A stretch of 64,000 bases of DNA from Lamellibrachia satsuma (taxonomy: Eukaryota > Annelida > Polychaeta > Sabellida > Siboglinidae). The DNA is taken from contig BSQZ01000099.1 in NCBI GenBank assembly GCA_033239005.1, positions 999,501 through 1,063,500 on the forward strand, read 5' to 3'. A program made the translations under genes and the position numbers. Shown here piece after piece: positions 3,422-42,992 of this stretch; positions within the stretch are counted from its first letter, which is position 1; each line of letters opens with the position of its first letter. The notes below the pieces were generated by a model that saw nothing but the letters and a program-made list of their open reading frames with translations, was not told the origin of the DNA and did no database searches.

Positions 3422-3847
3422 ATGCACGCGTCCTTAAGAGAATCGAGAATCTTACAAGATGACGAGGAAGAGAATGATAAATCCGATGTTATAATCATCA
3501 ACAGCAGCGACGACAGCAGCAGCAGCAGCAGCGACGGTGAGGACATGTCGACGACGATGCGTCAAATAGATAGGATAGTAGATCGTGGTGATTCTATGAT
3601 TAACGAACAGAGGTTTAATGTAGCTGTAGAGAGTGCTGCTGTCCAGTACGCGTGCGATGAGGTGAGTCGTGTAATGAATTTAGACTCAGACGATGATTAC
3701 ATACCCTCATCCGACACGATCATGCATATCTTGCGGTGGTTAAGTATAGAAGTGATCACAACGTGTGGGACCATACAGTGGCGAGAACGCGTGAAAGACA
3801 AGGTGAGAGATGTGATAATTGAACGATATATGCAACGCATAAACTAA
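3422..3847 (+). CDS. accessory protein X (SIM-bearing), copy in host element H
   Basis: 141 aa. The N-terminus is acidic and Ser-rich, with a SUMO-interaction-like core VIIINSSDD (residues about 23-31) followed by a Ser/Asp run. The C-terminal 95 residues match the X proteins of P1 and P2: DRxxDRxxxM, YACDEVxRxxNL, a Tyr-x-Pro-Ser turn and an LRWLSIEV helix. Unlike P1 and P2, the GT(A/G)AGT donor after the SIM exon is absent, so only the unspliced form can be made here. Function unknown. Confidence 0.6.
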   Translation: MHASLRESRILQDDEEENDKSDVIIINSSDDSSSSSSDGEDMSTTMRQIDRIVDRGDSMINEQRFNVAVESAAVQYACDEVSRVMNLDSDDDYIPSSDTIMHILRWLSIEVITTCGTIQWRERVKDKVRDVIIERYMQRIN

Positions 3848-3863
3848 TCTTTTTTTGTTTAAG

Positions 3864-4304
3864 AAGGCGTACAAGAGACAGGCGTCACTAATCTTTTTGT
3901 TCAAGAAAACTCGCAAGAGACAGGCTTCGAGCGGCGACAACATCGAATGGATGATGTCGGTCAAACAACACAAATCGTCAGGGGTGTCACCGGCGTCGAC
4001 GGATTTACCCTCTTACACGGAGGGTTGTCCGTTGTCCTGGCCGGAAGATGACGTCAGTTTCAAGTCGCCAGACGATAAAGATGTTGTCGACAGCCCCAAG
4101 TCGCCAGACGTACGCATGTCGTCGGAGGAATGTAACATCGTCATTGAAGATGCTATGGTTCAGAAGATCATAAGCGAGTGTCAAAGTAGTCGTCTCTCGA
4201 TCGAAACGATAACTCGCAACGTTTGTCAGGACATTGCCACTACAGTCATGTCGTTGGAGTGGCAAAAAGATCTTCGACGTGACATTCAACGCATTTGTTG
4301 CTAA
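3864..4304 (+). CDS. accessory exon Y-like, copy in host element H
   Basis: Open frame with no nearby ATG. It is preceded by a pyrimidine-rich tract ending in AAG, so it looks like a spliced exon beginning KAYKRQ, the segment conserved in the other Y exons. The middle is acidic and Ser/Pro-rich. The C-terminus (EDAMVQKII, then ITRNVCQDIATTVMSLEWQ) matches the ends of the P1 and P2 Y exons. Since X here has no matching donor, expression is doubtful. Confidence 0.5.
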   Translation, partial: KAYKRQASLIFLFKKTRKRQASSGDNIEWMMSVKQHKSSGVSPASTDLPSYTEGCPLSWPEDDVSFKSPDDKDVVDSPKSPDVRMSSEECNIVIEDAMVQKIISECQSSRLSIETITRNVCQDIATTVMSLEWQKDLRRDIQRICC

Positions 4305-6725: not shown

Positions 6726-6761
6726 AACGAGACACGGTATCGTACGAGTGCACACGTATAT

Positions 6762-6767: not shown

Positions 6768-6848
6768 GAACAAGCAGCAGCAGCAGGATGGCGATACAAT
6801 ATGGGTAGCGTGTAATATAAGTACGACTACCGGAGGCTCGTCGGTCGA

Positions 6849-7328: not shown

Positions 7329-7329
7329 C

Positions 7330-9954: not shown

Positions 9955-9960
9955 TGCGTC

Positions 9961-10263: not shown

Positions 10264-11366
10264 TTCTCGAATGAAGTGTCGCCATACGCGTTGCTGGTCT
10301 TTATAGTGGAGTGGACGAGTGCCCCGGCGTCGATCCAGCTGTTGTGTGTGGAGGGATAGCCGAACCATTTCACCAAAGCCTCCTTGCGTCCGTCCTTCGT
10401 AAGGCGTTGCAGTACCTCTTCGAAGCGGTACACCTTATCGACGGGTACCGACACCTTCTGCAGCTCCGGTTCGTAGAAGGTGCCGTCCAGCACTTCGCCG
10501 AGATCGTCCCGCATGCGGTACACGGGTGGAGCGGATGGATGAACCTCGAGCACCGTGAAGATCTCTTCGCTCCAGTTCGGCTCGTAGCCCTTTTCGAACT
10601 TGCCTTTGTACTTGCTGATGCGCACGCGATCCGCCACGTGCAACTTGGGCACTCCCTTACCGTCGTGGCCGTACAGGAGTTGCCACATCTTTTCTTGATT
10701 TTTGTGATTCACCTGTGACGGTGCCATGCCGATGCTGTCGTGGGGGGTGTTGTTATACGATCGTATCATGTCCGGAAGGACGTCGACGTAACGCCACGTC
10801 TGGTATTCCGTGAAGTATCGGCGCATGCGCGTCATCAACGTTTTGTTGAATCGTTCCACGACGCTCGCCTTCGTCTCCGCGTTGTGCGTGGAGAAGTGAC
10901 GGATGCCGTAACGACGCAATAGAGCCTGAACTGATTTGTTCAGAAATTCTGTGCCTTGATCCGTCTGCAGCGTATGTGGCCAAACGTCGACGAACGTGGT
11001 TTGCAGCGCCGCAGTCAATGACGCCGCGGACTTGTTCTTCATGGGAACACACCGGGCCACTTTCGAGAAGACGTCGATCGTCGTGAGGAGAAAGGTCATA
11101 CCTTCGTTGTGGCGTTTAAACTTCGTCAAGTCTACGAGATCGGCCTGCCACTGTTGATGCATACCACCCACGATGACGCATCGTCTCTTGAAATGGCGTC
11201 TCGCTGGTTTGTGTAAGGTGTAGGCGTCCTGTTCCGACAACCATTGTTCGACGATTTTCCGCGGCATGCGCGTGACGCGGCGCAAGGCGCCAACCCCTCC
11301 ATAACTGCCTACCCTCCGTGGATCGAAGTAGACCGTCCTCATGGGTTGTTCTCTCCTCCGTACCAT
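10260..11366 (-). CDS. retroviral-type integrase with chromodomain (P1)
   Basis: 368 aa from the conserved start at 11366 (VYFDPRRVGSYGG follows); the ORF extension to 11510 belongs to the next gene's region. DDE core: Asp in QWQADLVDL, Asp in LQTDQGTEF, Glu in VVERFNKTL. The C-terminus holds a chromodomain-like segment (YRFEEVLQRL, then EALVKWFGYPSTHNSW). It should catalyse insertion with 6-bp duplications. Intact here although the element is deleted elsewhere, so P1 might be integrated by its own enzyme. Confidence 0.9.
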   Translation of the reverse strand: MVRRREQPMRTVYFDPRRVGSYGGVGALRRVTRMPRKIVEQWLSEQDAYTLHKPARRHFKRRCVIVGGMHQQWQADLVDLTKFKRHNEGMTFLLTTIDVFSKVARCVPMKNKSAASLTAALQTTFVDVWPHTLQTDQGTEFLNKSVQALLRRYGIRHFSTHNAETKASVVERFNKTLMTRMRRYFTEYQTWRYVDVLPDMIRSYNNTPHDSIGMAPSQVNHKNQEKMWQLLYGHDGKGVPKLHVADRVRISKYKGKFEKGYEPNWSEEIFTVLEVHPSAPPVYRMRDDLGEVLDGTFYEPELQKVSVPVDKVYRFEEVLQRLTKDGRKEALVKWFGYPSTHNSWIDAGALVHSTIKTSNAYGDTSFEK

Positions 11367-11368
11367 AA

Positions 11369-11527
11369 TTAAAAGAGGAGGTCGGACGCGTTGACGGGGT
11401 CGGTGACCTTGAGTCCGGGGCACAGATGCTGACGAATGACGAGGAGAGCGCCGACGTATAGTAGGACGCACGCTATCGCAGTAACAACGCAAGCGGTAGA
11501 GCAACAACATTCTAGTAGCGAAACCAT
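11369..11527 (-). CDS. tiny membrane protein A (52 aa, P1)
   Basis: Starts MVSLLECCCSTACVV; one hydrophobic helix (VVTAIACVLLYVGALLVI) and a polar tail ending SDLLF. The stop lies two bases before the integrase start. Homologues of 51 and 53 aa sit in the same place in P2 and P3 with conserved RQ, the tail and the LLF end, which argues that it is a real gene. Function unknown; a viroporin-like role is only a guess. Confidence 0.6.
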   Translation of the reverse strand: MVSLLECCCSTACVVTAIACVLLYVGALLVIRQHLCPGLKVTDPVNASDLLF

Positions 11528-11673
11528 AGTCTGAACAACGTCTGTTGCATGAGACTTTGGGCTATGCCGTGAGCGATCAAGTAAAGTCCACTAACGAATA
11601 TCGCAGCGACGATGGAACGGTACGTGTCCTGTGGATCCGTTGACATGACGAACACTGTGTCACGGACACGCAT
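11512..11673 (-). CDS. tiny membrane protein B (53 aa, P1)
   Basis: Starts MRVRDTVFVMSTDPQDTYRS, then one hydrophobic segment (IVAAIFVSGLYLIAHGIA) and MQQTLFRLW near the end. It overlaps the start of membrane protein A by 16 bases. P2 and P3 have two tandem, diverged copies. Function unknown. Confidence 0.55.
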   Translation of the reverse strand: MRVRDTVFVMSTDPQDTYRSIVAAIFVSGLYLIAHGIAQSLMQQTLFRLWFRY

Positions 11674-11682
11674 CGCGCCACC

Positions 11683-12474
11683 TTATATGTCGTCCCAACC
11701 GGCCAATGACGACAAAGCCTTGCGTTTTTCAGGGGGTGGGGTGGGCATGGAATGTTCCATTCGACGACGATGCTGACGAGTGAGGGGTGTCCAACTTAAC
11801 GATCTTCGTGCACTACCGACAGCACGAGGAGTAGCGGAAGTCGATCGGCGAGGGGGAGTGACCGTCGTCGCCTGTCGTATGTAGGCTTTCCTGGCAGCGT
11901 TACCGACCAACTCCATGGACAGGTTGATGGTGCGGAGTTGTCGTGCGAATGGCTGCCACCCCGTCGGATCGGACTTTCTCTTACGCAACAGATCGTTGAC
12001 GAGATCCACCACGTTACTTCCGACCACCGGCTCGCCCTCGTGTATAAGTTCACCGCGAGCGGTCCACGCGACATTTCTCTTCAGATGTTCCATCAAACGT
12101 CGGGCTTTGGCGTGCATGGTCTTGGGAACGGTGTCCAAGACGGTGGCCTCTATTCCGCTACCGGGAACGCGTACTGCATCCTCCGACTCCGACCCCGGCT
12201 CCGCCCTCGACCCCGTCACCGACTCGTTCACCGTGAGCACGCGTACCGGTTCCTTGGCCTGTTTGTCGACCAAGACGTTGTACCGCTGCAACACCTGATT
12301 ATACAGTGTCACCTTGGTCCCGTCGTCTAGGTCCGTTCTGTCGAGGATGGTCTTCATATCGGCATCGAGGGCTTGCACCTTCTTACCTACGGTGTCGGTT
12401 GGGGGAGGTGGGGGTGAACGAAGCGTGTCCAACAGTCGAGGGTCTACCAAGGCCATCTTGCGTGCGTGTTCCAT
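11683..12474 (-). CDS. conserved Polinton protein, 263 aa (P1)
   Basis: Start at MEHARKMALVDPRLLD (12474), matching P2 and P3; the ORF extension to 12531 is junction sequence. Pro-rich turn, then a helical segment (VQALDADMKTILDRTDLDD, LYNQVLQRYNVLVD), a central VPKTMHAKARRLMEHLK and a C-terminal basic region (ATPRAVGSARRSLSW). Found in many invertebrate Polintons without known function; position among virion genes suggests a structural or assembly role. Confidence 0.65.
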   Translation of the reverse strand: MEHARKMALVDPRLLDTLRSPPPPPTDTVGKKVQALDADMKTILDRTDLDDGTKVTLYNQVLQRYNVLVDKQAKEPVRVLTVNESVTGSRAEPGSESEDAVRVPGSGIEATVLDTVPKTMHAKARRLMEHLKRNVAWTARGELIHEGEPVVGSNVVDLVNDLLRKRKSDPTGWQPFARQLRTINLSMELVGNAARKAYIRQATTVTPPRRSTSATPRAVGSARRSLSWTPLTRQHRRRMEHSMPTPPPEKRKALSSLAGWDDI

Positions 12475-12553
12475 GTATCTACTCGTCGGCCGCTCCTTTC
12501 GGAACAGGGATAGAAAGACCGAACTGACCACCGTTGTTGTGCGTTCGCACGTT
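12475..12553. other. deletion junction in P1
   Basis: Left of here P1 matches P2 up to about 34256; right of here it matches P2 from about 38135. About 3.9 kb (small basic gene, ATPase, polymerase core) is missing. About 65 bases at the junction match neither side clearly, as filler DNA or a diverged end of the small basic gene. Confidence 0.8.
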
Positions 12554-14425
12554 GGAAGCCACGCTGACGCTCAGCGGGACGTGACGTGCAACCCAGTGAA
12601 CCTGGTCACTGTCCGACGGAAGTTGTTCGGTGTCGAACCAACACTCGAAGTCAAAGGTGGCTCGGTACGGATAGTAACGCAACGCTTCGGCCACTCGGAT
12701 GTTCTCGTCGTCCAGCCGTTCGAACACCGATGGAGTCGAATGATACACGCCGCCGGGATAGACTCGACGCACACCTCCCGTACACGTGCTCTCGTGTCTA
12801 CGCAACGTCCATGCATCTTTCCACAACGCGTCACCGCACTTCCGACATCTATACGAGTGACAGTATTTGCGTACATCCTGGATGAAGGAAAAATGCGTCT
12901 CGTGAAGATTGAGGTAGAGTGTGTCAGGGTACTTACATATCGATCGACGGATGAGTTCGGCAGTTGTCGATCCATCCTCTTGATCCTCTCCATCCGGTTT
13001 TACGAGACTGTATACGCACACGTTCGTTTGGAACGTGGCCTCTACACGATAGAGGTCATCCATCGTGACCCCGGCAAATTCTTCCATGGGTACTCCGTTT
13101 TGGTTGTATGCCTCGTACAGCATCTTCACCGCTGGTTCCAATCGACGTATGTCACATCCTCGATGCAAGGGCCATACATCGGAACAGACACAGGTTATCG
13201 TTGTACCTCTTGGAATGGATGGGTTCCTTTTCCAGACCGATGACGGCTTTGTTCCTCTTGATGTACACTGGCAGGGCGATCATTCCTACGCATCCTATGG
13301 GATGATCGATGATGCGGTTGACGAAAAATGTGACATTGGTCACGAGTTCGCACACCCACGCAGAATCCGGTCTTTGATTGATGGCCCATTGCAGGATGTC
13401 GGTTTCTCGGATGCGTTCGAGAAAGTCATCAAAGTCCTTGCTGTTGGTGACGAGACTGGGCTCGTCCAGGTATCGTCCACAGCAGTTGCACGAGGAATGA
13501 TAGTACTTGTATCGACCCGTGTTCTTGTTCCTCAGAATGAACCCGTAACTGCGATTAACCTTGAAGGCCTTGGTCTGTTCCTGGAACATGCGCTTCAGAG
13601 GGGTCTCTAGGACGGTCGTGTCTAATGTTGTTAATCTGTAATCGTACCTACATTGGAGAGGTCCTCTCATTACACGTGTCCGTATCGTTCGCCAGTGCGC
13701 TCGAACGACATCTAGCAGTTCCGTGGACAGGGTGTCGTCGAAGGGGAGTCGATCAGGTGGATCTAGGGGGTTTTCGGGGGTAACGAGTGGATGGTGGGGT
13801 GTGGTGTCTTCTCTGTTTGATCTCTTCGGCCATTCTTGACGACGTCGGTACACGTTGTTCCTGCGTGTCTGGTCAGGGCGTCGCGTCTATTGTAATTCTT
13901 TCCGCATTTCGCACAAGTGTAGACTGCGGTCTTTTTTGCACTACTGCTACTGCTACTGAGGAGTCGATCAGGTGGATCTAGGGGGTCTTCATGGGTAACG
14001 AGTGGATGGTGGGGTGTGGTGTCTTCTCTGTTTGATCTCTTCGGTCTTGGTGGCTTCTTGACGACGACGACGACGCCGCCGGTACACGTTGTTCGTGCGT
14101 GTCTGGTCAGGGTGTCGCGTCTACTGAAATTCTTTCCGCATTTCGCACAAGTGTAGACTGCGGTCTTTTTTGTACTACTGCTACTGCTAAGACGACATAC
14201 GGATATCACATGATGCTGCAGGTCGTCCCATCTCCCAAACGTTGCATCGCATTTACACGTATATTTCGTTCTCTTGGCGTGGTCACTAGGTGGCACCACT
14301 GCTGGTACCGTTACCGCATTCGAGTGTTCGTTAACTGCCGGTGTGGAATGGCTCGCTAGGTGCTGTTGTAGCTCTGCATACGTATCGAATGTCACTCCGC
14401 AGTGACGACATAGATGACGTTTCAT
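12479..14425 (-). pseudogene. DNA polymerase B, N-terminal part only (P1)
   Basis: Keeps the zinc-finger and OTU-like N-terminal half through the first exonuclease motif (FDFECWFDTE), then ends at the deletion junction. All palm motifs are gone. Frames 13763-14425, 13152-13853 and 12479-13168 are joined by frameshifts near 13840 and 13165. The third zinc finger plus its Pro/His-rich linker is tandemly duplicated (about 13750-13965 and 13970-14190). The OTU-like Cys motif DNLCLFR is present near 13180. It cannot polymerise DNA. Confidence 0.85.
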
Positions 14426-14650
14426 GATGCTGTACGCGTCTACAACTGACAGACCGCAGCTCTTAGTACATATATATAGTGCGTGTGGCGGTGGTGGTGG
14501 TGGTGTAGTAACTAAGGTGTGTTCCTATGCTAATGGCTACTGTGTCCACTATCGATGGCTACGGGTTCTCTTTCAACTAGGTAACACCACTGACAACACG
14601 TATCAATCATTGCATGACTTTTTTTTATTACATATACTTTGGTATGTCAT

Positions 14651-14658
<8 letters not shown>

Positions 14659-14738
<80 letters not shown>
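14659..14738. repeat. (TA)n microsatellite
   Basis: About 80 bases of TA between polymerase and accessory exons of P1. Confidence 0.97.
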
Positions 14739-14745
<7 letters not shown>

Positions 14746-14939
14746 CACGGATAGACTTATATAAACACTGTGCTGACATGATGGTTTGTGGGATTGTTAC
14801 ATCCTCGCCAGTGACCCTAGCTTACATCGACACGCCAGTGGTTAGTTTATTGATGATTAACTTGTGGGCTGTTATACCGCGACAGAGGTTACGTACAATG
14901 ACGATGATGAGGTATTATGATGATGAGGTATTATATATA

Positions 14940-14940
<1 letters not shown>

Positions 14941-15015
<75 letters not shown>
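14941..15015. repeat. (TA)n microsatellite
   Basis: About 75 bases of TA, in the same relative place as the array at 40261-40358 in P2. Confidence 0.97.
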
Positions 15016-15017
<2 letters not shown>

Positions 15018-15150
15018 CAATGACTCTGTCATACAATAAGACTAAATTAAATATCTATGTCATACAATAAGAGAGTACATAACATAACATTCTACAGCTA
15101 ACAAATAAATTACTGTGATTTATAATGCTTTCCGTTGTAAACGGTGAATA

Positions 15151-15264
15151 TTAATAAGCGTGTGATTCGACCATAAAATCAATAATGATGTTGACTAATC
15201 GTCGCAGTTCGCGTCTCCGCATTGCTGCCGGTGCTACGGGTGCTTCATCATACCCTTCCTCGTC
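15151..15264 (-). CDS. alternative terminal exon b of the X/Y locus (P1)
   Basis: Acceptor TTATGTAG at 15265-15272, then 37 phase-0 codons beginning DEEGYDEAPVAPAAMRRREL and ending in a stop at 15151. No ATG start makes sense, so it must be a spliced exon. It is a paralogue of exon a next door and of three exons in P2; shared features are DEAPV, an Arg-rich stretch and a hydrophobic helix (INIIIDFM-like). Too short for automatic ORF calling. Confidence 0.55.
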   Translation of the reverse strand, partial: DEEGYDEAPVAPAAMRRRELRRLVNIIIDFMVESHAY

Positions 15265-15278
15265 CTACATAACAATAA

Positions 15279-15380
15279 CTACTGTTCATCGTGTGTCGTA
15301 ATCATGTACTCTAGTATTATCTCCACTAATTCTCGACCTGCACGCCTACGCGCTTCTGTCGGTAGCACAGGCGCTTCATC
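15279..15380 (-). CDS. alternative terminal exon a of the X/Y locus (P1)
   Basis: Preceded by a strong pyrimidine tract and acceptor (TTTGCTTTAG). Encodes 33 residues from DEAPVLPTEARRRAGREL to a stop at 15279, phase 0. Its counterpart in P2 at 40684-40788 ends in the same HDEQ-stop. Conservation of acceptor, frame and stop between two diverged elements supports a real exon. Confidence 0.6.
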   Translation of the reverse strand, partial: DEAPVLPTEARRRAGRELVEIILEYMITTHDEQ

Positions 15381-15527
15381 CTAAAGCAAACAAAATAAAA
15401 GATACTAAGTTACATTACTCATACTACTGTTCCTCTACAGTGGGTATAATGTTCAAATACTACTACTAATGTTCAACAACTACTATCTACTAATGTTCCA
15501 CTACTAATGTTCCACCACCAATTACGG

Positions 15528-16241
15528 TTAACGTCGCAGGATCATGCGTGCCTGTGAATTCATAACTTCCCGCCATTCTGACGACTGCATGGTTGCAATT
15601 GTCGCATCACATACGCGTTCTGTTATAACGTCTACGGATTGCGACGATCGACGCCATTGGTTCACGATCATATTGGCCATGACCTCTTCTAGCACTATAT
15701 GACACACCTTGTCATTCATCTGGTCCTCCTCCGCATCCTCCGTATCCTCGTCGTCGTCCTGTGTCGACGACTCCGCCTGTTTGGCGCATTGATCCAGCTT
15801 CTCGTCCTTTGTCGACGGCTCGGCTTGCTTGGTGCATTGATCGGGTATGTGCACGACACCCCCGTCTGGCTTCAGCACCACCGTCTCGTCTGGAAATACG
15901 TACAGGGTTGGGGGTGTCGTCACCTCTTTCTCAATTGTCGGCAGTGGCGACGCCGGACTAAACTCGAAGCTGGCGTCTTCAGCCTCGGCTTCTTTCGCAT
16001 CGTCTTCTTCTTCATCATCTTCTTCATCATCAGAATCATAGAGAGGCCCCCACGGCATTTCCTGCATTTGTGGTATCGAATCCCAGTCGTCATGGGTTGA
16101 TGTGGATGTTGGTGGTGTTGTTGTCGCTTCCCCTCGTCGTCTCTTCGCCTCCTTCTCCTCCGACTCCTTCTCCTCCGCGTCCGCCTCGTACATCGCCGAT
16201 ACCTGACGTTTGTACGCCCTCTGCAGTTGCGTCAGACCATT
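15528..16241 (-). CDS. exon Y of the X/Y locus (P1)
   Basis: Starts after acceptor CAATAG at 16242; phase 0, 237 residues plus stop. Begins NGLTQLQRAYKRQVSAMY, then a very acidic Glu/Lys tract, a repeated QCAKQAE(P/S)ST segment, and a C-terminal helical region (VLEEVMANMIVNQW, VDVITERVCDATIATM). The internal ATG at 16193 gives the shorter ORF, but P2's exon has no ATG there, so splicing from the X first exon (donor at 16669) is the better model: 55 + 237 = 292 aa. Function unknown; acidic tracts suit a regulator. Confidence 0.65.
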   Translation of the reverse strand, partial: NGLTQLQRAYKRQVSAMYEADAEEKESEEKEAKRRRGEATTTPPTSTSTHDDWDSIPQMQEMPWGPLYDSDDEEDDEEEDDAKEAEAEDASFEFSPASPLPTIEKEVTTPPTLYVFPDETVVLKPDGGVVHIPDQCTKQAEPSTKDEKLDQCAKQAESSTQDDDEDTEDAEEDQMNDKVCHIVLEEVMANMIVNQWRRSSQSVDVITERVCDATIATMQSSEWREVMNSQARMILRR

Positions 16242-16281
16242 CTATTGAACAGAACTACTAATTACATTGCTAGTATGATCA

Positions 16282-16283
<2 letters not shown>

Positions 16284-16345
<62 letters not shown>
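16284..16345. repeat. (TA)n microsatellite in the X/Y intron
   Basis: About 62 bases of TA between the end of X and the Y acceptor, so inside the predicted 427-bp intron. Confidence 0.95.
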
Positions 16346-16348
<3 letters not shown>

Positions 16349-16362
16349 GCACATAGTTCTCA

Positions 16363-16833
16363 TTACTCGTCCGTAGCATCCTGTATATCTGTGCATCGTT
16401 CTGCTAGAGTCTTTTTAACCAACTCTGCCACATCGTGGCGCCACGTCATGTTGGTACACCTTGAGGTGACCTCTATAGATAGCCACCGCAAGACGTGCAT
16501 GACCAAGCTGGACGATGGTACGTAATGCTCCTTGTCGTCCTTTAAATTAAGTATGCGGTTCACCTCGTCACAGGCATACTGGACGCTGGCGACCTCTAGT
16601 GCTTTAAAAAAGTTATTTTCGATCGCCATGGCTTCGGATCGATCACGTATCCTATCTAGACCACTCACCATAGCCTCCATGTCGTCGCTACTACTACTAC
16701 TACTACTACTTATATATATGACGTCACTATTCTCCCTTTCGTCATCTGTTATCATGATGAGGGATGGCGGTGAACAACTTTCCACCGAGGAGGAAAATAG
16801 TATTTCGGAACTATTATTACGTAACCATTCCAT
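16363..16833 (-). CDS. accessory protein X, SIM-bearing (P1)
   Basis: 156 aa unspliced. The first 55 codons form the shared exon: MEWLRNNSSEILF, then two SUMO-interaction-like cores followed by acid/Ser (LIMITDDE, residues 25-32; VIYISSSS, 38-45). A strong donor (ATG|GTGAGT, intron from 16668) at codon 55 allows phase-0 joining to Y. Read-through gives the helical X domain (YACDEVNRIL, VMHVLRWLSIEV). Neighbours RPA-like (upstream) and Y (downstream). The SIM reading is inferred from motif shape and its repetition in all X copies. Confidence 0.65.
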   Translation of the reverse strand: MEWLRNNSSEILFSSSVESCSPPSLIMITDDERENSDVIYISSSSSSSSDDMEAMVSGLDRIRDRSEAMAIENNFFKALEVASVQYACDEVNRILNLKDDKEHYVPSSSLVMHVLRWLSIEVTSRCTNMTWRHDVAELVKKTLAERCTDIQDATDE

Positions 16834-16926
16834 TACCTTCTCTCTTCCGTTCCTGACGCTGACGACGTCACTGCTTGTAGCAGAGGCAGCGGCGACGTCG
16901 GCATCATCATCCTGTCAACAACAGAG

Positions 16927-17396
16927 TTACACGGCCATTACTTCCAGGTCTGACACTGTGTAATTGACATACTGTCCCGCTACGCGCTTCCTAACGGTCG
17001 CCATGACACGAGCCCCCCGCAACATATAAAGTGCCTCGTACCGCTCGGTGTCTGACGTCATGTTCATGTAAGCGTTAGCCGTAAATCCCAACACACTAAC
17101 TGCCTTTTCGTTAAACAACGTTGCCCACACTTCACTCCCAATGGCATCCTGTAGGAGGATACGCAGACAGAATCGATAGGTTGGAACCCGCTGCTATCGA
17201 TGAATCGGACACGCGTAGCCATTCTTTTCGGGAACCACACGTTTGGCACACTGTCCGCATGATGGATATACAATATGTTTCTCTTGCGTGGTACATTGTA
17301 CTATAGTTAACGGACGTGTAAATCTATAATTTCCGTTACTTACTCAAGACGTGTAATCGTCATCTCATCGGCGTTGTACTGCTGTGCTGCTGCCAT
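16927..17396 (-). pseudogene. RPA70 DBD-C-like ssDNA-binding protein (P1), broken
   Basis: Homologous to the intact gene at 42519-42992. Zinc-ribbon residues CGQC and CPIH are visible, but a TAG at 17194-17196 replaces the Trp after CPIHR and the frame is lost near 17343, after the first 18 codons. The last open part (16927-17130) keeps WATLF and the LGFTAN segment. The sequence at the early break (GAGTAAGTAA) also resembles a splice donor, so an intron is possible there, but the internal stop remains. Confidence 0.7.
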
Positions 17397-17467
17397 TCTT
17401 TCATTAATGCTGGTGCTGGTGCTAGGCGATCGGAAAGCGAGTGTGTGTCTGGTTAACTGCCAGCCAC

Positions 17468-17475
17468 TTTATATA
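17468..17475 (-). promoter_or_regulatory. TATA box of the RPA-like gene (P1)
   Basis: Minus-strand TATATAAA about 75 bases upstream of the start at 17396; the same box stands upstream of the P2 gene (43079-43086). Confidence 0.55.
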
Positions 17476-17535
17476 GGCCTGCTACTGCCTGTGGCGCGCA
17501 ATCTTATCGTGCCCCTTGGTCGCGCGCGTGATGCG

Positions 17536-18090
17536 CTATTGTGCGCCGGGTGTGTGCCAGTGCGGTGTACTTTGTCCGTCGGTCTTGTGATCGACTCGAG
17601 TTACGTCTGGCGTTAGTTTCACTGTGGGGGGATTATCATGTCTTCGTATGAACACGCGTACTTTCATAAGTATCTGTCCTAACATGTTCTGACCAGCTTG
17701 ACCACTGTAAGTCAGTGCACTCCAGTAGCCTTCCCGACTCTTTACCCATTCCTTCAATTCAGCTTTTCCTGTAGCTAACAGTCGTTTACGTAGGGTCGGG
17801 TCGCGAAATTTAACAGCCACTAACGCATACATTATAGAACATCTTTGTGTGTTCCAGTCAGCGCGTAAATGCGCTTTCTCTCGAATGCTCTTGCTTAGGT
17901 ATTTCGCCTGTGGACCCGTGTGAGTGGATAGCATTTTTTCAGCTGTGTGTATATCCCCATGATGCATGCATTTACGCCATTGGTACGCGCTTTCCACAGT
18001 ATTAAATTCTCTATTCCACACATGTATCGTGCACGCATAGAAATTGGACAGGTAATTCTTGCCGCCTTGGAACTGTACAGGACGGTTCAT
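17536..18090 (-). CDS. NADAR-domain protein (P1)
   Basis: 184 aa, YbiA/NADAR superfamily (former DUF1768). Family motifs in order: YLSNFYA (residues 14-20), TVESAYQWRK with the conserved Glu, RADW, MYALVAVKF, RDPTLRKRLLATG, WVKSREGYW, and GQNMLGQILMKVR near 150. NADAR enzymes hydrolyse N-glycosidic bonds in ADP-ribose-linked substrates; some remove ADP-ribose from guanine. Here it may reverse host ADP-ribosylation of nucleic acid or protein. The C-terminal 30 residues have no match in P2. Intact. Confidence 0.85.
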   Translation of the reverse strand: MNRPVQFQGGKNYLSNFYACTIHVWNREFNTVESAYQWRKCMHHGDIHTAEKMLSTHTGPQAKYLSKSIREKAHLRADWNTQRCSIMYALVAVKFRDPTLRKRLLATGKAELKEWVKSREGYWSALTYSGQAGQNMLGQILMKVRVFIRRHDNPPTVKLTPDVTRVDHKTDGQSTPHWHTPGAQ

Positions 18091-18369
18091 ACTGCCTTTA
18101 TGCCGTTAAAATGTACATTCACTGTATTAAATACACGCCGTTCTAGAGCTGTCTCAGTACTCATAACCCCCATTTTTTCCTTGCGTGATGGATGCCTGGT
18201 GTCGGTTAGTTGACAGCTGCAGGCCGCTTATCTTATTTTCTGATTACTGTGCTATTGTTCTGAGGGTTACGTCAGCTGTCTGGTTTATTTCTACCATGCT
18301 ATATAAACGAGCTGGGATCTTCGTGTCGTCATCTCAACCGCGCCGTTATTGCCTTCATACTCGAACATC
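18091..18369. promoter_or_regulatory. divergent NADAR/Z promoter (P1)
   Basis: 279 bases between two outward-facing genes. On the plus side TATATAAA at 18300-18307 lies about 63 bases before the Z start; on the minus side a TATTTAATA-like box near 18127-18136 faces NADAR. The block around ttttccttgcgtgatggatg and gtcggttagytgacag recurs at 43755-43800 and 49985-50030, so the element is conserved. Confidence 0.6.
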
Positions 18370-18462
18370 ATGCCTGCCGAAGTCGTAGCTCTGTTTAGCG
18401 ATCTCTTGGTCGTTATACAAGCCGTCGGGACGGCCATGTTTGAACTACTAGATCGTGCGTAA

Positions 18463-18530
<68 letters not shown>

Positions 18531-18748
18531 TTATTTATTCATTTATTTATTTATTATTCTTTACATAGCTCTACATAGCTCTACATTTTTAATAAATGTT
18601 CACTTTACATACTGTTCTATCGTTCCCTGTATACATGTCTCGCTAAATGTTCGTCGAGTCCAAGTTCCATATGCAGCGGCTTGCCTGACGATAACACCTA
18701 CCAGTTGATCGGTTTCATATTACATATATCTCTCGTTGCTTGGTTACG

Positions 18749-18842
<94 letters not shown>

Positions 18843-19356
18843 TGACTACATTATGTATATTCTCACTCTGGTTTTGTCGTTTACTTGCAGCATGCATAGA
18901 GCTTACTGGCCGCTCGTCATGGCGGAAATGCAACAGATGACCATAGACCAACGGATCACGGCTACCGGTCAGTTTCGCGACAAACTCTACACCGACGGTC
19001 TGTTACCGTACTTCATGCGGCACGCCAGTCTTTGGCGTCATGTTGTCGCTGAAGTCCAGCGCCTCAAATTTGGCTATCGCCACCATGACATTCCACCAGA
19101 ATGCTGGGATGATAAGTGCCCCTCTGCTACAGATTTCCTCATTCATAGGAGGCGCTGGTCGGCCGTCATGGCCGACCTACAACACTACCCGAGAACACCG
19201 TCAGGTCGATCGCCATTACCGCGTCGCCGTCGATCGCCGTTACTGCGTCGACGTCGACGCACGCTCGCACCGTTGCCGCTGGACAACCTAGGACGACGCA
19301 CGACACGTCCTCTCGGTCGCCGCAAACTTTTGGTTCTGTTCAATAATGTCGGATGA
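18370..19356 (+). CDS. gene Z, two exons (P1)
   Basis: Exon 1 18370-18458 (donor GTAAGT), exon 2 18891-19356 (acceptor TTACTTGCAG), phase 2, 184 aa. The intron holds two TA arrays. Exon 1 encodes a short hydrophobic helix. Exon 2 carries repeats of W-x-x-V-(M/V)-x-x-(L/M): [27 protein letters not shown], then an Arg-rich tail of RRRRSPLL type. The same intron position and phase occur in P2 and P4. No known family; the basic tail could bind nucleic acid. Confidence 0.65.
18464..18526. repeat. (TA)n microsatellite in Z intron
   Basis: About 62 bases of TA starting six bases after the Z splice donor, followed by ATTT repeats. Confidence 0.95.
18752..18841. repeat. (TA)n microsatellite in Z intron
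   Basis: About 90 bases of TA ending 50 bases before the Z acceptor. P2's intron has only a short TA run here. Confidence 0.95.
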
Positions 19357-19505
19357 ACTGGTACCCATGCTGAACTTCTATACTTATATATCACATTTTA
19401 ATTTTTAACTTCTTTAATATGTAACTGTACTTCTTTTCATATATATTAAATTTTGCTTCATGTTATATTCCCGTCTTGTATTGCGTTCTTGTTACAAATG
19501 CACAT

Positions 19506-19658
19506 AGTCAATTTTCACCCTGCTACAATTTTTTTACTGAACGGTCCGATTTCCATATTCCAACGGATAAATTGCACCCATGCATGTCGGCTAAATATTA
19601 CATATAACATACTACCATTATATTTAACGGTTTTCATTTTATTACGTCTTATGTCCAC

Positions 19659-19715
<57 letters not shown>

Positions 19716-19916
19716 TGGCTATAACAGACCTCAATGCGTGTGTGCATATTTTACACATAGTCAATTTTCACCCTGCTACATTTTATTTACTGAACGGTCC
19801 GATTTCCATATTCCAACGGATAAATTGCACCCATGCATGTCGACTAAATATTACATCTAACATACTACCATTATATTTAACGGTTTTCATTTTATTACGT
19901 CTTATGTCCACTACAA
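19506..19916. repeat. direct repeat (about 160 bp, two copies) around a TA array
   Basis: Copies at about 19506-19662 and 19756-19914 share caattttcaccctgctaca, the block actgaacggtccgatttcc and gcacccatgcatgtcg, with few differences. A 50-base TA array (19663-19713) and a short unique piece separate them. P2 has one full copy near 45090-45245. No gene between Z and the right TIR. Confidence 0.85.
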
Positions 19917-20044
19917 CAAGCCTCAGTCCTACATCAATAGCGTACTTTGCAACAGTGTTGCCGTTTTTTTCACTGATTAGCTCGACTCCGTTGCTACATT
20001 GTTCCGATTAGCATTCTTTGATCTCGCACTATGGCTCACAGCTG

Positions 20045-20379
20045 GATAAACGCTTCGGCTTACAGTTAACTCCTGTCGTTACGACGTCCAATTAGCATTA
20101 GCTCGCCACTCGGACTGGTCACTCCGTCCCGTCTTTCTCGTCTCCTCGTTAGGTCCTTTGATCTCAGTTATTAATTACCCTCTTCATTAACAATCTTCTT
20201 TCATCTCAATTATTAATCTTCCTCTCCTCACGCGCCCCGCGGAGCGGGGCGGGGCCCCTCTACTCCCCCCTCACGTCACTCATGCGTGAACAGGCCGCTA
20301 GGGGGCGCTATTAACCAAAATCGGTCATGCGTAGCCACCACCACAAAATTTGAGGTCCCAAAACCTCCCACATACTACT
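20045..20379. repeat. P1 right terminal inverted repeat
   Basis: Inverse of 6299-6637; outer end reads ccacatactact. Includes the CCCCGC-rich stretch and the block with aggccgctagggggcgc. Confidence 0.93.
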
Positions 20380-24032: not shown

Positions 24033-24554
24033 GTGTTGTTGGTTTCTCACTACGCTAACAAAAGAAATAGCAGCAGCGATCATATACAGATGACGGTAAG
24101 TCGAATAGATAAAATATGGGATCGTACGGATGCCATGTTGAACCAACAGACATTCGATGTAGCGGTAGACGAGGCCTGCATTCGTTATACGTACGCCGAG
24201 GTGCTTCGTATGTTGAGTCTGTCGGACAATGACTATTACGTACCGTCGACCTGGTTGGTCAACCACGCTCTACGTTGGGTTGTCACAACCTTTATCGCGA
24301 GATTCGAGAAACGTCAATGGCGTCTCCATATGGTAGTGAAGGTCAGAAACACCATCGTAAGTATGGTAGTGAAGGTCAGAAACACCATCGTAAGTCAATA
24401 CAAAGATACGTGCTCTGTTAGTAGTAGTAGTAGTACTAGTGACGGTGGTGACGAGGCGCCCATGGTGCCGGCAGATGTTCGTGATCGAGCGCGTCGACAA
24501 TTAGCGGCGACAAGAACGGAAAACACCAATCAATGCAACGACGTGCCCTACTAG
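24033..24554 (+). CDS. accessory protein X-like
   Basis: Matches X from MTVSRIDKIWDR onward (YTYAEVLRML, YYVPSTWLVNHALRW). A strong donor follows ATGACG (GTAAGT, intron from 24096), as in P1 and P2. A 33-base tandem duplication near 24330-24395 repeats MVVKVRNTIVS. The C-terminus runs directly into a Ser run and a DEAPMVPADVRDRARRQL module, homologous to the separate terminal exons of P1 and P2. The first part of the ORF lacks the SIM exon. Confidence 0.5.
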   Translation: MLLVSHYANKRNSSSDHIQMTVSRIDKIWDRTDAMLNQQTFDVAVDEACIRYTYAEVLRMLSLSDNDYYVPSTWLVNHALRWVVTTFIARFEKRQWRLHMVVKVRNTIVSMVVKVRNTIVSQYKDTCSVSSSSSTSDGGDEAPMVPADVRDRARRQLAATRTENTNQCNDVPY

Positions 24555-24617
24555 TAGTGATTAAACAGGTGTTACTGACAGTGATTAAGCAGGCGTGTCT
24601 TTTGTTCTTGTCTATAG

Positions 24618-24899
24618 ATAAATAGCGGCCTCGACCAACTCAAAACGGCATACGAGGAGACGACGATGAAGGCACCGCCACCCCGCTCGCACACGCCACC
24701 ACCACCACCCCGCTCGCAGACGCCACTGCAGCCACCCAACTCGCAGACGCCGCCGCCGTCTCGCTCGCAGACGCCACCACTACAGAGATTATGTACTTAC
24801 GAAAGATGCAGCAGCAGGCTTAATGCAACCCCGAGTTCGACGTGGACGATCAGCAGATCGGAGCATAGCGCAATGTCAGATATCATGGTGATGCTATAA
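24618..24899 (+). CDS. exon Y-like, Pro-rich
   Basis: Begins after acceptor TCTATAG (24611-24617), phase 0: INSGLDQLKTAYEE, the conserved Y opening. The rest is Pro/Ser/Gln/Thr repeats (PPRSHTPPPPPRSQTP) and a short tail to 24899. The conserved helical C-terminus is lost. Distance and phase to the X donor at 24096 match the P1/P2 arrangement. Confidence 0.5.
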   Translation: MNSGLDQLKTAYEETTMKAPPPRSHTPPPPPRSQTPLQPPNSQTPPPSRSQTPPLQRLCTYERCSSRLNATPSSTWTISRSEHSAMSDIMVML

Positions 24900-25343: not shown

Positions 25344-25853
25344 ATGAATCGTCCTATATACTTCAGATGCGAAAACAGTTTCCTATCTAACTTCTACGTG
25401 TGTATGATACATGCATGGGGTCATGCTTTTAACACCGTTGAAGCTGCGTACATGTACAGGAAATTCATAAGTAAAATAGATAAAATATGGGATCGTACGA
25501 ATTCCATGTTGGACCAACAGACATTCGATGTAGAGGTAGACGAGGCCTGCGTTCGTTATACGTGCACCGAGGTGGTTCGTATGTTGGCTGTATCAGACGA
25601 TGAGTATTACGTGCCATCGTCCTGTTTTGTCTACCACACCCTACGTTGTGTTATTGCAGTCTTTACGGCGAGATTCGAGAAACTACAATGGCGAATCGAT
25701 ATGATAGAGAAGGTTAGAAATGCCATCGATAGTCAATACAAAGATACGTGCCCTGCTAGTAGTAGTAGTAGTGATGGTTATGACAAGGCACCTATGCCGC
25801 CGGCAGACGTTCGTGATAGTAGTGATGAAATACGTTTTACTGACAGTGACTAA
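25344..25853 (+). CDS. in-frame NADAR N-terminus / X fusion
   Basis: 169 aa. Residues 1-41 are the NADAR start (MNRPIYF, FLSNFYVCMIHAW, NTVEAAYMYRKF). From residue 42 it becomes X (ISKIDKIWDRTNSM to WRIDMIEKVRNAIDSQYKD), then a Ser run and a DKAPMPPADVRD module. The rest of NADAR resumes at 26922, so an X/Y cassette sits inside the NADAR gene. Whether the chimera is expressed is unknown; it keeps no complete NADAR active site. Confidence 0.55.
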   Translation: MNRPIYFRCENSFLSNFYVCMIHAWGHAFNTVEAAYMYRKFISKIDKIWDRTNSMLDQQTFDVEVDEACVRYTCTEVVRMLAVSDDEYYVPSSCFVYHTLRCVIAVFTARFEKLQWRIDMIEKVRNAIDSQYKDTCPASSSSSDGYDKAPMPPADVRDSSDEIRFTDSD

Positions 25854-25881
25854 GCAGGTGTGTCTTTTTTCCTGTGTACAG

Positions 25882-26508
25882 ATAAGCAACGGTTTGCATC
25901 AATTGAGGAAGGCGTACGAGGAGGATGATGATGACAAAAAGACTGTGACTGCGATGCCAAGAAAACGCATAACGCCACCATTGGCAGACAATTACCTGCG
26001 GTGGTACTTGATCAACAAAAGACAGCTGGTATCGCAGTCGCTGTCATCCGAAACATCGCCACCGCAGCAATAGCTGTCGTCAGCACCACAGACGTCAGCG
26101 GTGACGTCAGTCATGTCACCGGCAACACCACCGCAGCAGCTGTCGTCACCACCGTCACCACCACCATCGCAGCTGTCCCCAGCACCGCAGACGTCAGCAG
26201 TGACGTCACCACCGTCGTCACCGCAGCCATCATCATCATTGGCGATGTTCAGTCCGGTGTCACCACCGTTGTCACCGCAGCCATCATCATCAGCGCTGTT
26301 CAATCCGGTGTCAACTTCGTACAATCAACATGAGTCGTCGTCGTCATCTTCACCCGTACTACTACCATGTCACCCGATACCACTGCTGATGATCGAACAA
26401 TCCAGAATGATGTTAGAAGCCATAAGCAACATAGTCATGCATACAACCATAAACACACCTCTAACAGTAGCTCAAGCCACGCACGCTATGTGCACTTCGA
26501 CACTGTAA
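25882..26508 (+). pseudogene. exon Y-like, Pro/Ser-rich, one stop
   Basis: Acceptor CCTGTGTACAG then phase-0 ISNGLHQLRKAYEEDDDD. An in-frame TAG at 26071-26073 interrupts; the same frame continues through SPPSPPPSQLSPAPQTSAV-type repeats to a C-terminus (LMIEQSRMMLEAISNIVMHT) matching Y in P1 and P2, ending at 26508. One base change separates it from an open exon. Confidence 0.5.
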
Positions 26509-40530: not shown

Positions 40531-40665
40531 CTAATTAAATGCCGGCGTTTCTACCATGAAATCAATAATTATTTGTAATAGACTATGTAGTGCACGTGTC
40601 CTCTCGTCTCGTGCTAGTACGGGTGTCTCCTCATTCACCTCCTTCACCTCCTCCTTCACCTCCTC
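40531..40665 (-). CDS. alternative terminal exon b of the X/Y locus (P2)
   Basis: Acceptor TTTATGTAG at 40666-40674, then 44 phase-0 codons: an EEVKEEVKEVNEE acidic run, TPVLARDERTRAL, a IIIDFMVET helix and a stop at 40531. The IIIDFMVE end matches P1 exon b. Confidence 0.55.
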   Translation of the reverse strand, partial: EEVKEEVKEVNEETPVLARDERTRALHSLLQIIIDFMVETPAFN

Positions 40666-40683
40666 CTACATAAAGAAATACAC

Positions 40684-40788
40684 CTATTGTTCATCGTGCG
40701 TCGATATGATATATTCTATTAGTAGCGTTATTAATTGACGACTTGCACGCCTACGCGCTTCAATCGGTCGCACAGGTACGTCATCATC
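40684..40788 (-). CDS. alternative terminal exon a of the X/Y locus (P2)
   Basis: Acceptor TTGTTCTGTAG, then DDDVPVRPIEARRRASRQL and a helix ending HDEQ-stop at 40684; 34 codons, phase 0. Counterpart of P1 exon a (same end). Confidence 0.6.
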   Translation of the reverse strand, partial: DDDVPVRPIEARRRASRQLITLLIEYIISTHDEQ

Positions 40789-40865: not shown

Positions 40866-40970
40866 CTAATAATAATATTCTGTTGACGACATCATATAAG
40901 GACCGTTCAATACTCCAGTTCGCTTCCGAATGCTGGCTGCGAGTACGGGTGCCTCGTCGTAAACTTCAAT
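40866..40970 (-). CDS. alternative terminal exon c of the X/Y locus (P2)
   Basis: Acceptor TTGTTATGTAG, then IEVYDEAPVLAASIRKRTG and on to a stop at 40866; 34 codons, phase 0. Keeps DEAPVL but loses the final helix. No counterpart in P1, so the array differs in number. Confidence 0.5.
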   Translation of the reverse strand: MEVYDEAPVLAASIRKRTGVLNGPYMMSSTEYYY

Positions 40971-41088: not shown

Positions 41089-41913
41089 TCACAACCTACG
41101 GTTGTCGACACGGATGTTACTACGAGCATACGCCACCATTACTGCTTGAAACGCTGCCGACAGTATCGTAGCTGCCAGTGTTTGGCAAACGTCCTCGGTC
41201 ACTTCCTCTACCGTGGATGGGCCGGATGCCCACCACTGATTCGTTATTATTTGTACAATGCTTTTCTCCATCGTTCGGAAACGCACCTTGCGCTCTTGGG
41301 TGGCCGCGGACTCGTCCTCATCGGTGTCTTCGTCCTCGACGGTCGACGGCTTCGGATGAGTGATAGTGTGTTGATCTGGTATGTGGATGTGTCCGCCGTC
41401 TGGTGTCACAACGACGGTTTCGTCCGGGAACACATAGAGTCTCGGTGGTGATGCTGATGATGATGCCCTCTCAACTTGCGTGCTTGCTATCAGTGGTGGC
41501 GACGCGGGACTGAACTCGAAGTCCTTGTCGTCATCGTCTTTCTCGGGTGCTGGGGATGAGGCGATGGCTTCTTCATCCACGTCATCATAGTAATGAGGGG
41601 GGGTCTTGATGATCCAAGGATCTTCGACATCCTCCTCCTCATTCTCAGTGTCCGATAGATTTTCCACAGGACCCCACGGTAACTGCTGCGTCGCAGCCAC
41701 CAACACCCCCCCTCTGGTGTTGTCATCTGTCGCCTCATCATCCGACTCAGTCTCCGACGAGGATCCCCACGGTATTTCCTGTGTCTCTGGATATTCATCT
41801 ACCGGGCCTGTCTTCTGCCGTTTCCCCGATGGCGTCACCTCGTCCTCGTCATCTGCATCATAAAGATCGTCCAACTGGCGCTTGTATGCTGTCTCCAGCT
41901 GCGTTAGACCCGT
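41089..41913 (-). CDS. exon Y of the X/Y locus (P2)
   Basis: Follows acceptor TTCAACAG; 274 residues, phase 0, with no ATG near its start (the ORF caller had to use a TTG). Opens TGLTQLETAYKRQLDDLYD, then three acidic segments each with a Q-(E/L)-(I/L)-PWG core (ETQEIPWGSS; TQQLPWGPV), LYVFPDETVV, and the C-terminal MEKSIVQIITNQWW and VEEVTEDVCQTLAATIL helices. Spliced to the X first exon (42418-42260) it would give 327 aa. The P1 Y has the same PWG and LYVFPDETVV motifs. Confidence 0.65.
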   Translation of the reverse strand, partial: TGLTQLETAYKRQLDDLYDADDEDEVTPSGKRQKTGPVDEYPETQEIPWGSSSETESDDEATDDNTRGGVLVAATQQLPWGPVENLSDTENEEEDVEDPWIIKTPPHYYDDVDEEAIASSPAPEKDDDDKDFEFSPASPPLIASTQVERASSSASPPRLYVFPDETVVVTPDGGHIHIPDQHTITHPKPSTVEDEDTDEDESAATQERKVRFRTMEKSIVQIITNQWWASGPSTVEEVTEDVCQTLAATILSAAFQAVMVAYARSNIRVDNRRL

Positions 41914-42418
41914 CTGTTGAATAGAAAGAATCGGTTACATTCGACATATTTTCATCCACGTCGCCCTGTATATCGTTGTATTGGGCGTACATACTCTTTC
42001 TAACCAAATCTGTCACTTGCTGACGCCATTTCATGTTCCCACACGTTGCGATGACATCTATCGATAGCCACCGCAACACGTGCATGACCATGCTGACCGA
42101 TGGTACGTAACGTTCCGTATCATCATCATCATTTAAATTCATTATGCGTTGCACCTCGTCACAGGCAAATTGCACGCTGGCGACCTCTAGTGCCTTATAG
42201 AAGGTTTGTTCGTTCGTCATGGCTTCGGCTCGATCACGTAGCCTATCTAAACCACTCACCGTAGCCTCCATATCATCGCTACTGCTTATGGATATGACGT
42301 CACGCTGTGACGCACTATCGTCCGAGTCATCTGATATTGAAATTAATGGTGGCGGTGAACAGCTGTCCGCAGAGGAGGTGAATAGTATCTCCGAGCTATT
42401 AGCATGTAACCATTCCAT
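41858..42418 (-). CDS. accessory protein X, SIM-bearing (P2)
   Basis: 186 aa unspliced. First 53 codons are the shared exon: MEWLHANSSEILF, LISISDDSDDS (25-35) and VISISSSDD (41-49), ending at ACG|GTGAGT (intron 42259-41914, 346 bp). Read-through encodes the X helical domain (FACDEVQRIMNL, VMHVLRWLSIDV). The last 20 residues of the read-through form come from the Y exon in another frame, so the authentic X end is uncertain. Confidence 0.65.
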   Translation of the reverse strand: MEWLHANSSEILFTSSADSCSPPPLISISDDSDDSASQRDVISISSSDDMEATVSGLDRLRDRAEAMTNEQTFYKALEVASVQFACDEVQRIMNLNDDDDTERYVPSVSMVMHVLRWLSIDVIATCGNMKWRQQVTDLVRKSMYAQYNDIQGDVDENMSNVTDSFYSTDGSNAAGDSIQAPVGRSL

Positions 42419-42518: not shown

Positions 42519-42992
42519 TCACACTGTGACTATTTCCATGTCTGACACCGTGTAATTTACATACTGTCCCGCCTCGCGTTTCCTAACGGTCACCATGACT
42601 TGGGCCCCCCGCAACATGTCCAGTGCTGCATACCGTTCGGCGTCTCCTTTCATGCTCATGTATTCGTTAGCAGTGAATCCCAACACCTGGACAGCCTTGG
42701 CATTAAATAGGGTTGCCCACACTTCACTACCGATGGCGTCTTGTAGGAGGATACGCATAGCGAACTGATACACTACACCACGCTGCCATCGATGAACCGG
42801 ACACACATACCCGTTGTTTTCGGGACTCACACGTTTGTTACACTGCTGACATGATGGATAAACTATATATTTGTCTTGAACAGCACATTGTACTATGGTT
42901 AACGGCCGTCTAAATATATAAGTCCCGTTACCTACCTGTCTCTCGAGTTGGCTGACTGTCATCATCATCATATCGGCGTCTTGGGCGGCCAT
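42519..42992 (-). CDS. RPA70 DBD-C-like ssDNA-binding protein (P2)
   Basis: 157 aa, intact. After a Met-rich start, an OB-fold with a zinc ribbon: CQQC (about residues 49-52) and CPVH (about 66-69), then VYQFAMRILLQDAIGSEVWATLF and AVQVLGFTANEYM. This matches the C-terminal DNA-binding domain of replication protein A (Rep_fac-A_C). It likely binds single-stranded DNA during element replication. A GTAGGT after CAG in codons 19-20 could act as a splice donor. Copy in P1 is broken. Confidence 0.75.
   Translation of the reverse strand: MAAQDADMMMMTVSQLERQVGNGTYIFRRPLTIVQCAVQDKYIVYPSCQQCNKRVSPENNGYVCPVHRWQRGVVYQFAMRILLQDAIGSEVWATLFNAKAVQVLGFTANEYMSMKGDAERYAALDMLRGAQVMVTVRKREAGQYVNYTVSDMEIVTV

Follow-up and report, generated by a model that had tools for sequence, protein, structure and literature searches.

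A candidate alternatively spliced early-type locus with a shared SIM exon in two Polintons

Introduction

Adenovirus E1A and other early units of adenoviruses yield nuclear regulators by alternative splicing, and in polyomaviruses small t is made by reading past the large T donor. Polintons have virion genes in common with adenoviruses but follow a transposon lifestyle. In the polyomavirus early region, one precursor mRNA is alternatively spliced to several early proteins, as set out in the portion of PMC5656788 used here, and the sections consulted of PMC11071296 and PMC10812802 define the adintovirus 'oncoid' class by short linear motifs. The portion of PMC12721341 available to us reports no GT-AG sites from the intergenic regions of its elements. 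Among the matches listed in our literature search, no description of alternative splicing in a Polinton stood out. Going by that portion of PMC5656788, the splicing logic considered below is already known from polyomaviruses, and its probable occurrence in a Polinton would be the new aspect.

Here we analyze a locus carried by two Polintons, P1 and P2, in a 64,000-nt stretch of DNA (the window). An earlier note had likened it to the early regions of polyomaviruses and adenoviruses; the likeness holds for the logic, as the sequence contains a putative shared exon with a readable donor and in-frame alternative ends, but no sequence relation was found. As small t does, a segment called X2 would read through the donor of exon X. 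The locus differs from that of polyomaviruses in lying in a linear integrating element, in offering several successive choices and in having tandem tail exons. An IVa2-like packaging ATPase in the element is shared with adenoviruses, whereas X and Y have no E1A-type domain match and no LxCxE, a motif found in 0 of the 20 protein segments of the window. With the oncoids, as that class is described in the sections consulted, the products would share the status of accessory proteins of Polinton-type viruses; the comparison is with the class description only, and the products differ from it in lacking LxCxE and in having been recognised by exon structure and SIMs.

Results

Polinton elements of the window

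Both P1 and P2 are bounded by inverted repeats, and a third element is cut by the window end.

6299-20379, Polinton P1, inverted repeats, target duplication AACGTC on both sides
27936-45784, Polinton P2, inverted repeats, target duplication CACGTC
left end at 55763, third Polinton (P3), cut by the window end

Each of the two complete elements has terminal inverted repeats, a 6-bp target duplication and an integrase with chromodomain (rve E 9e-13 in P1 and 8.3e-13 in P2; chromo match of 25.0 bits in P1, where the cut-off is 25.1, and 25.8 bits in P2). The packaging ATPase of P2, with a P-loop present, matches Adeno_IVa2 (E 3.6e-5, 23.2 bits, cut-off 21). These features are those of Polintons/Mavericks. 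Matches below cut-off were DNA_pol_B_2 in P2 (E 0.0079, with no PDB match at E 0.01) and the adenovirus-type protease Peptidase_C5 (E 0.036); a capsid-candidate ORF gave a weak, unrelated PDB match (E 0.096). The elements differ from Polintons/Mavericks in carrying an RPA-like frame, a NADAR gene and two genes that would depend on splicing, the second of which is gene Z.

17536-18090 (P1) and 43208-43672 (P2), NADAR-domain gene, PF08719, E 9.3e-20 and 2.8e-18
25300-25451 and 26936-27197, pieces of the NADAR gene
18370-18458 plus 18891-19356, plus strand, gene Z of P1, phase-2 intron
43945-44036 plus 44318-44873, plus strand, gene Z of P2, phase-2 intron

Gene Z, divergent from the NADAR gene, requires an intron of the same phase (2) in P1 and P2. 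The dN/dS of the NADAR gene between P1 and P2 is 0.21. NADAR is named in phages, NCLDV and RNA viruses in PMC9503650, and the word Polinton is absent from the main text as available to us. Elsewhere the window holds a tandem array of roughly 45-bp units (53081-54028) and a DDE_Tnp_4 transposase frame (46418-47179, E 1.6e-30), which we take to be Harbinger-type.

Layout of the locus

The putative exons and signals are as follows, a slash marking a predicted exon end.

P1, all on the minus strand
17469..17475, TATATAA upstream of exon 1
17344..17396, exon 1, donor TGA/GTAAGT at 17343, out of phase with X
16912..17343, intron 1, RPA-C-like reading frame broken by an in-frame stop
16669..16911, X exon, acceptor TGTTGACAG, ATG at 16833, two SIM-like motifs, donor ATG/GTGAGT
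16363..16668, X2, the second half of X including its stop, translated only on read-through of the X donor
15708..16241, exon Y1, acidic, acceptor TTCAATAG, donor AAG/GTGTGT at 15707
15528..15707, Y2, the end of Y including its stop, translated only on read-through of the Y donor, hypervariable between copies
15279..15380, tail Ta with stop
15151..15264, tail Tb with stop
14846..14851, first AATAAA after the TATA box, with a second at 14629

P2, all on the minus strand
from 43086, TATATAA upstream of exon 1
42936..42992, exon 1, donor CAG/GTAGGT at 42935, phase 0
42519..42935, read-through of intron 1, RPA-C-like domain PF08646
42260..42502, X exon
41858..42259, X2, read-through with stop
41287..41913, exon Y1, acceptor TTCAACAG, donor AAG/GTGCGT at 41286
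41089..41286, Y2, read-through with stop
40866..40970, third tail, Tx
40684..40788, tail Ta
40531..40665, tail Tb
40008, single AATAAA

The coordinates proposed for P1 by the earlier note proved correct. Codons 1-55 of X (16833-16669) end in ATG/GTGAGT with a predicted intron from 16668, Y opens in phase 0 at 16241 after CAATAG, two short phase-0 exons open at 15380 and 15264 and end in stops (to 15279 and 15151), and the joins from the X donor to Y and to both tails are in phase 0. P2 has the same layout at homologous places; its third tail, and in P1 the phase-0 donor of Y at 15707, exon 1 (17396-17344) and the acceptor at 16911, had been absent from that description. Counted from its upstream acceptor, the X exon is 243 nt long in both elements, and Y up to its donor is 534 nt in P1 and 627 nt in P2, all multiples of three. 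The paralogy claimed for the tails was also borne out: in a comparison of the five tails and two tail-like modules of F4, a degenerate piece described below, 18 of the 21 pairs were reached by at most 5 of 1000 shuffles.

The predicted sites score highly with a working splice-site matrix. The X donor ranks first among GT sites in both elements; the predicted donors together rank 1, 2 and 7 of 168 in P1 and 1, 2 and 3 of 180 in P2, and the predicted acceptors 1, 3, 4 and 6 of 194 AG sites in P1 and 1, 2, 4, 5 and 6 of 200 in P2 (for Ta, Tb and Y, 1, 4 and 6 in P1 and 4, 1 and 2 in P2). By piecewise alignment with a 3-nt tolerance, the predicted sites of P1 were all retained in P2 (3/3 donors and 4/4 acceptors, vs 2/4 and 0/5 of other sites scoring at least 1); from P2 to P1 the figures were 3/3 and 4/5 vs 2/11 and 0/2.

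The TATA box lies 79 nt (P1) and 94 nt (P2) from the exon-1 ATG, and no AATAAA or ATTAAA occurs between it and the tails in either element, a layout in keeping with a single transcription unit. A further TATATAA is found at 16716, inside the X exon of P1; P2 is without it.

Copies across the host genome

The host genome (735 Mb, 279 contigs), which we take from these figures to be eukaryotic, was searched for further copies. DNA searches gave at least 134 matches with the P1 locus (40 of 290 candidates scored) and at least 88 with the P2 locus (40 of 311 scored), and a search with the X protein gave at least 150 matches of 62-100% identity (150 of 715 scored). Seventy-two further copies, picked by score and spread and not at random, were analyzed: 32 P1-type, 20 P2-type and 20 more divergent. 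An intact set of X1, Y1 and one or more tails occurs in 24/32 P1-type and 12/20 P2-type copies, and one with every tail in 20/32 and 11/20. Within families, predicted acceptors were retained more often than other acceptor sites (0.95 vs 0.63 and 0.98 vs 0.90), with little difference for donors (0.95 vs 0.86 and 0.93 vs 0.84).

The window itself contains degenerate copies in two pieces, F4 and E0.

24042..24899, plus strand, degenerate copy F4a, X donor ACG/GTAAGT (24096), Y acceptor 24618
25464..26073, plus strand, degenerate copy F4b, homologous X donor lost, Y acceptor 25882
3449..4304, plus strand, degenerate copy E0, homologous X donor lost, Y acceptors 3864 and 3906

All three thus keep the Y acceptor, and F4a alone keeps the X donor. 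In E0, the Y acceptor and exon start form a short tandem duplication (3846-3920). The X-Y block of F4b lies inside the NADAR reading frame (25464-26935), and the F4 copies have a tail-exon-like module (DEAPMVPADVR) directly after X in the same frame (24384-24549 and 25746-25860).

The X exon, its motifs and its donor

Two SIM-like motifs occur in the X exon of both P1 and P2 (shuffle means 0.08 and 0.07), in line with the SIM exon named in the earlier note; one is found in the X of E0 and one more in X2 of P1. Working patterns were used for the SIM and LxCxE searches. SIM-type motifs bind SUMO, and the products may act at SUMO-rich nuclear sites. An AlphaFold model of X is helical with a mean pLDDT of 56 (X2 is helical at low confidence), and Foldseek gave 0 matches to viral proteins at E up to 0.001; because of the low pLDDT and the lack of a match, no fold is claimed for X. 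Searches for relatives were likewise negative: for X and Y, Pfam gave no family at E 0.01 in P1 and one non-significant match (E 0.17) in P2, the best PDB match of X had E 0.35 with none for Y, X had no match in phage records, and IMG/VR held no relative when X, Y, the integrase or the capsid-candidate ORF was the query. A WRxxV motif had hinted that X2, Y2 and the Z protein might share an origin, but this was not supported by hhalign (probabilities 1.3%, 0.2% and 0.5%).

The exon upstream of X in the layout probably makes X an internal exon. The RPA-like frame of P2 matches PF08646 (E 1.4e-12) and an RPA1 chain (E 9.1e-5), with a dN/dS of 0.26 between P1 and P2. The X acceptor TGTTGACAG stands shortly past the stop of this frame and enters the X frame in phase 0; therefore the RPA-like frame would be the read-through form of intron 1. 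Exon 1 is open and in phase in 27/29 P1-type and 19/19 P2-type copies in which its ATG was found (32 and 20 read). Because conservation is weak over the stretch from the X acceptor to the X ATG (dN/dS 0.60 for 25 codons, P1 vs P2), the in-frame join of exon 1 to X is the weakest of the joins. Among P2-type copies this stretch has two states, of 74-77% or 96-98% identity.

At the X donor, 69 of the 70 copies that aligned there, counting P1 and P2, have GTRAGT (4 of 74 were not aligned). The donor codons are not constrained beyond the protein, ranking 49 of 106 among conserved X codons, so the pairing of X with Y rests on position, score and phase. The X donor scores best and is in frame, and on these grounds we infer that it is the partner of Y. 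Where the earlier note had looked to related Polintons for conservation of donor, acceptors and phase, the Y acceptor, the Y donor and the phase are conserved in most copies examined, but the X donor shows no conservation that its coding role does not explain. It had also named a contrary case, elements that lose the sites while X and Y have their own starts. This is touched in part by E0 and F4b, without the homologous X donor, and by one copy (L088) in which the X donor is lost and the first codon of Y is ATG; another (L082) has the same first codon and keeps the donor.

X might instead be an independent, unspliced gene, with Y and the tails spliced from exon 1 or an unseen first exon. In both P1 and P2 it starts with an ATG of its own and its frame stays open through the donor, exon 1 could join Y in frame in the same copies in which it is in phase, and the Y acceptor persists in E0 and F4b despite the missing homologous donor; the absence of extra conservation at the X donor codons also suits such an arrangement. 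Against this stand the top score of the X donor in both elements and its near-universal GTRAGT, and the X of E0 contains two other high-scoring donors, 3662 and 3803, which by their distance from 3449 fall in phase 0. We consider a separate X gene unlikely.

Exon Y lacks a start at its 5' end

Neither Y nor the tails have a start near their 5' ends. Upstream of the Y acceptor an in-frame stop is met after 0 codons in P1 and 7 codons in P2, with no ATG between. The earlier statement that Y in P2 has no ATG was not accurate as worded, for one is present, but the first Met is residue 215 of 274; in P1 it is residue 17. Y is conserved from the first codon of the exon onward (NGLTQLQRAYKRQ in P1, TGLTQLETAYKRQ in P2). 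Y1 is acidic (52 D+E vs 17 K+R in P1; 55 vs 14 in P2), with a dN of 0.48 and saturated dS between the elements, and Y2 has a dN/dS of 0.32.

The acceptor reads TTCAAYAG in 31/32 P1-type and 20/20 P2-type copies. Of the 20 more divergent copies, 18 contain a recognizable Y. All 18 have a phase-0 CAAYAG, either right at the aligned start or 3 nt ahead of it, and some thus carry one additional codon. From the acceptor, Y is open to a phase-0 AG/GTGYGY donor in 26/32 P1-type and 15/20 P2-type copies; with a looser donor pattern it is open in 12 of the 18 divergent copies, all 12 with AAG/GTGYGT.

Unspliced translation of Y is very improbable, whether through non-AUG initiation, a start at Met 17 (P1-type copies) or a ribosomal frameshift out of X. 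A Met stands at residue 17 in 30/31 P1-type copies, making a start inside Y1 conceivable there, ATG is the first Y codon in L082 and L088, and the X frame of P2 overlaps exon Y by 56 nt in a different frame. A start at residue 17 would omit the conserved stretch ahead of it, however, and none of the 20 P2-type copies has a Met in Y before residue 27, if it has one at all. In P1 the X stop is separated from Y by 121 nt and a Y-frame stop lies right at the acceptor, the tails would need a start too, and a polypyrimidine-AG precedes each piece.

Constraint on the tails

Between P1 and P2, Y and the tails are under purifying selection, with dN/dS of 0.47 for Ta and 0.33 for Tb (0.23 for X1 and 0.56 for X2). 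Lengths that are not a multiple of three occur in 0/60 P2-type tails vs 25/40 adjacent non-coding gaps, and in 5/62 P1-type tails vs 14/31 copies of the adjacent gap. Within families dN/dS is noisy, being 0.45 for Ta and 0.72 for Tb in P1-type copies; P2-type values (Tx 0.76, Ta 0.90, and Tb 4.38 on very few changes) show no constraint, and non-coding gaps treated likewise gave 0.75-2.11. Third-position excess within families did not separate coding from gap.

The predicted Y donor outlasts its surroundings

In copies that are otherwise near-identical, the region around the Y donor is hypervariable.

15849-15531 (P1) and 41499-41092 (P2), hypervariable block

The final part of Y1 (Y1c) and Y2 are both less than 80% identical to the window copy in 19/32 P1-type and 13/20 P2-type copies. 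There Y1c is 56-70% (P1-type) and 60-67% (P2-type) and Y2 43-79% and 55-61% identical, while X2 is 95-99% and 97-100% identical and Ta with Tb 86-100% and 94-99%, not counting P1-type copies L031 and L034, in which the tails are either missing or could not be aligned. For example, the identities of X2, Y1c, Y2, Ta and Tb are 100, 63, 58, 97 and 98% in L057 and 99, 66, 66, 100 and 99% in L014. This pattern looks like recombination rather than point mutation.

A GTGYGY donor is nevertheless present in 18/19 of these P1-type and 13/13 of these P2-type copies; AG precedes it in 17 of the 18 retained P1-type cases, and L034 has lost it. Between P1 and P2 the donor likewise stays while the flanking protein differs (NDK/VCHIVL vs QERK/VRFRTM). 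The distance from the donor to the Y stop is 57-70 codons where Y is open, against a Y1 length that ranges between 56 and 258 codons; for the 12 divergent copies whose Y is open, it is 34-72 codons. At 80%, the 41 copies in which Y is open yield 8 classes of Y2 protein. Taken as a bare string of letters, the donor 9-mer ranks 17 of 307 in conservation among P1-type copies and 146 of 396 among P2-type copies, where AAG/GTGCGT has changed to CAG/GTGTGT and three copies are misaligned. Persistence of the putative Y donor through a Y block of 43-79% identity is, as we read these alignments, the best evidence for the locus.

That the copies are degenerating remnants of genes once equipped with starts, with splice sites arising by chance, is hardly credible: many copies carry lesions, and in 6/32 P1-type and 5/20 P2-type copies the Y1 frame does not stay open as far as its donor, but start-less exons show selection and frame-preserving lengths, most copies of both types are intact in X1, Y1 and at least one tail, and the Y donor outlasts the divergence around it.

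Discussion

The copies are best fitted by a spliced locus with a shared SIM exon and terminal exons, as the earlier note had proposed, but two of its points need revision: the Y donor is a more natural partner for the tails than the X donor alone, and another exon probably precedes the X exon. Judged from the predicted sites and frames, the locus is likely a single transcription unit with repeated choices between retaining and splicing an intron. Several proteins would probably arise from one transcript, much as in small DNA tumour viruses, because the later coding pieces without a proper start keep in-frame splice signals in the copies examined.

The transcript would begin behind the TATA box, take in exon 1, the RPA-like frame, X and Y, then the tails, and finish downstream of them. 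Every exon would end at a phase-0 donor that is itself readable, there being three such donors. Where a donor is ignored, the ribosome would continue into a domain with its own stop, namely the RPA-like domain after exon 1, X2 after X and Y2 after Y1; where it is used, the frame would be handed to the next exon. The SIM-bearing X exon would then end in X2 or proceed into Y, and for Y the possible endings would be Y2 and any of the short paralogous tails, two or three in number.

A wider reading would make every intron of the early region a coding domain, with RPA-like, SIM-helix and SIM-Y proteins, the last with interchangeable tails, as products of one transcript, and would have recombination swap the hypervariable block around the Y donor among copies nearly identical elsewhere, with the splice signal as the fixed point in a host-facing protein that changes fast. 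We hold it tentatively, with slightly more doubt than confidence. Of the possible functions, the most likely for the single-transcript locus is that of a nuclear regulator that would bind SUMO-marked host proteins via the shared exon while swapping its C-terminal partner domain.

The many genomic copies make this proposal directly testable from host RNA-seq, and the locus illustrates a way to find start-less exons that ORF callers overlook. If the proposal is true, Polintons would use the alternatively spliced early-gene logic of small DNA tumour viruses.
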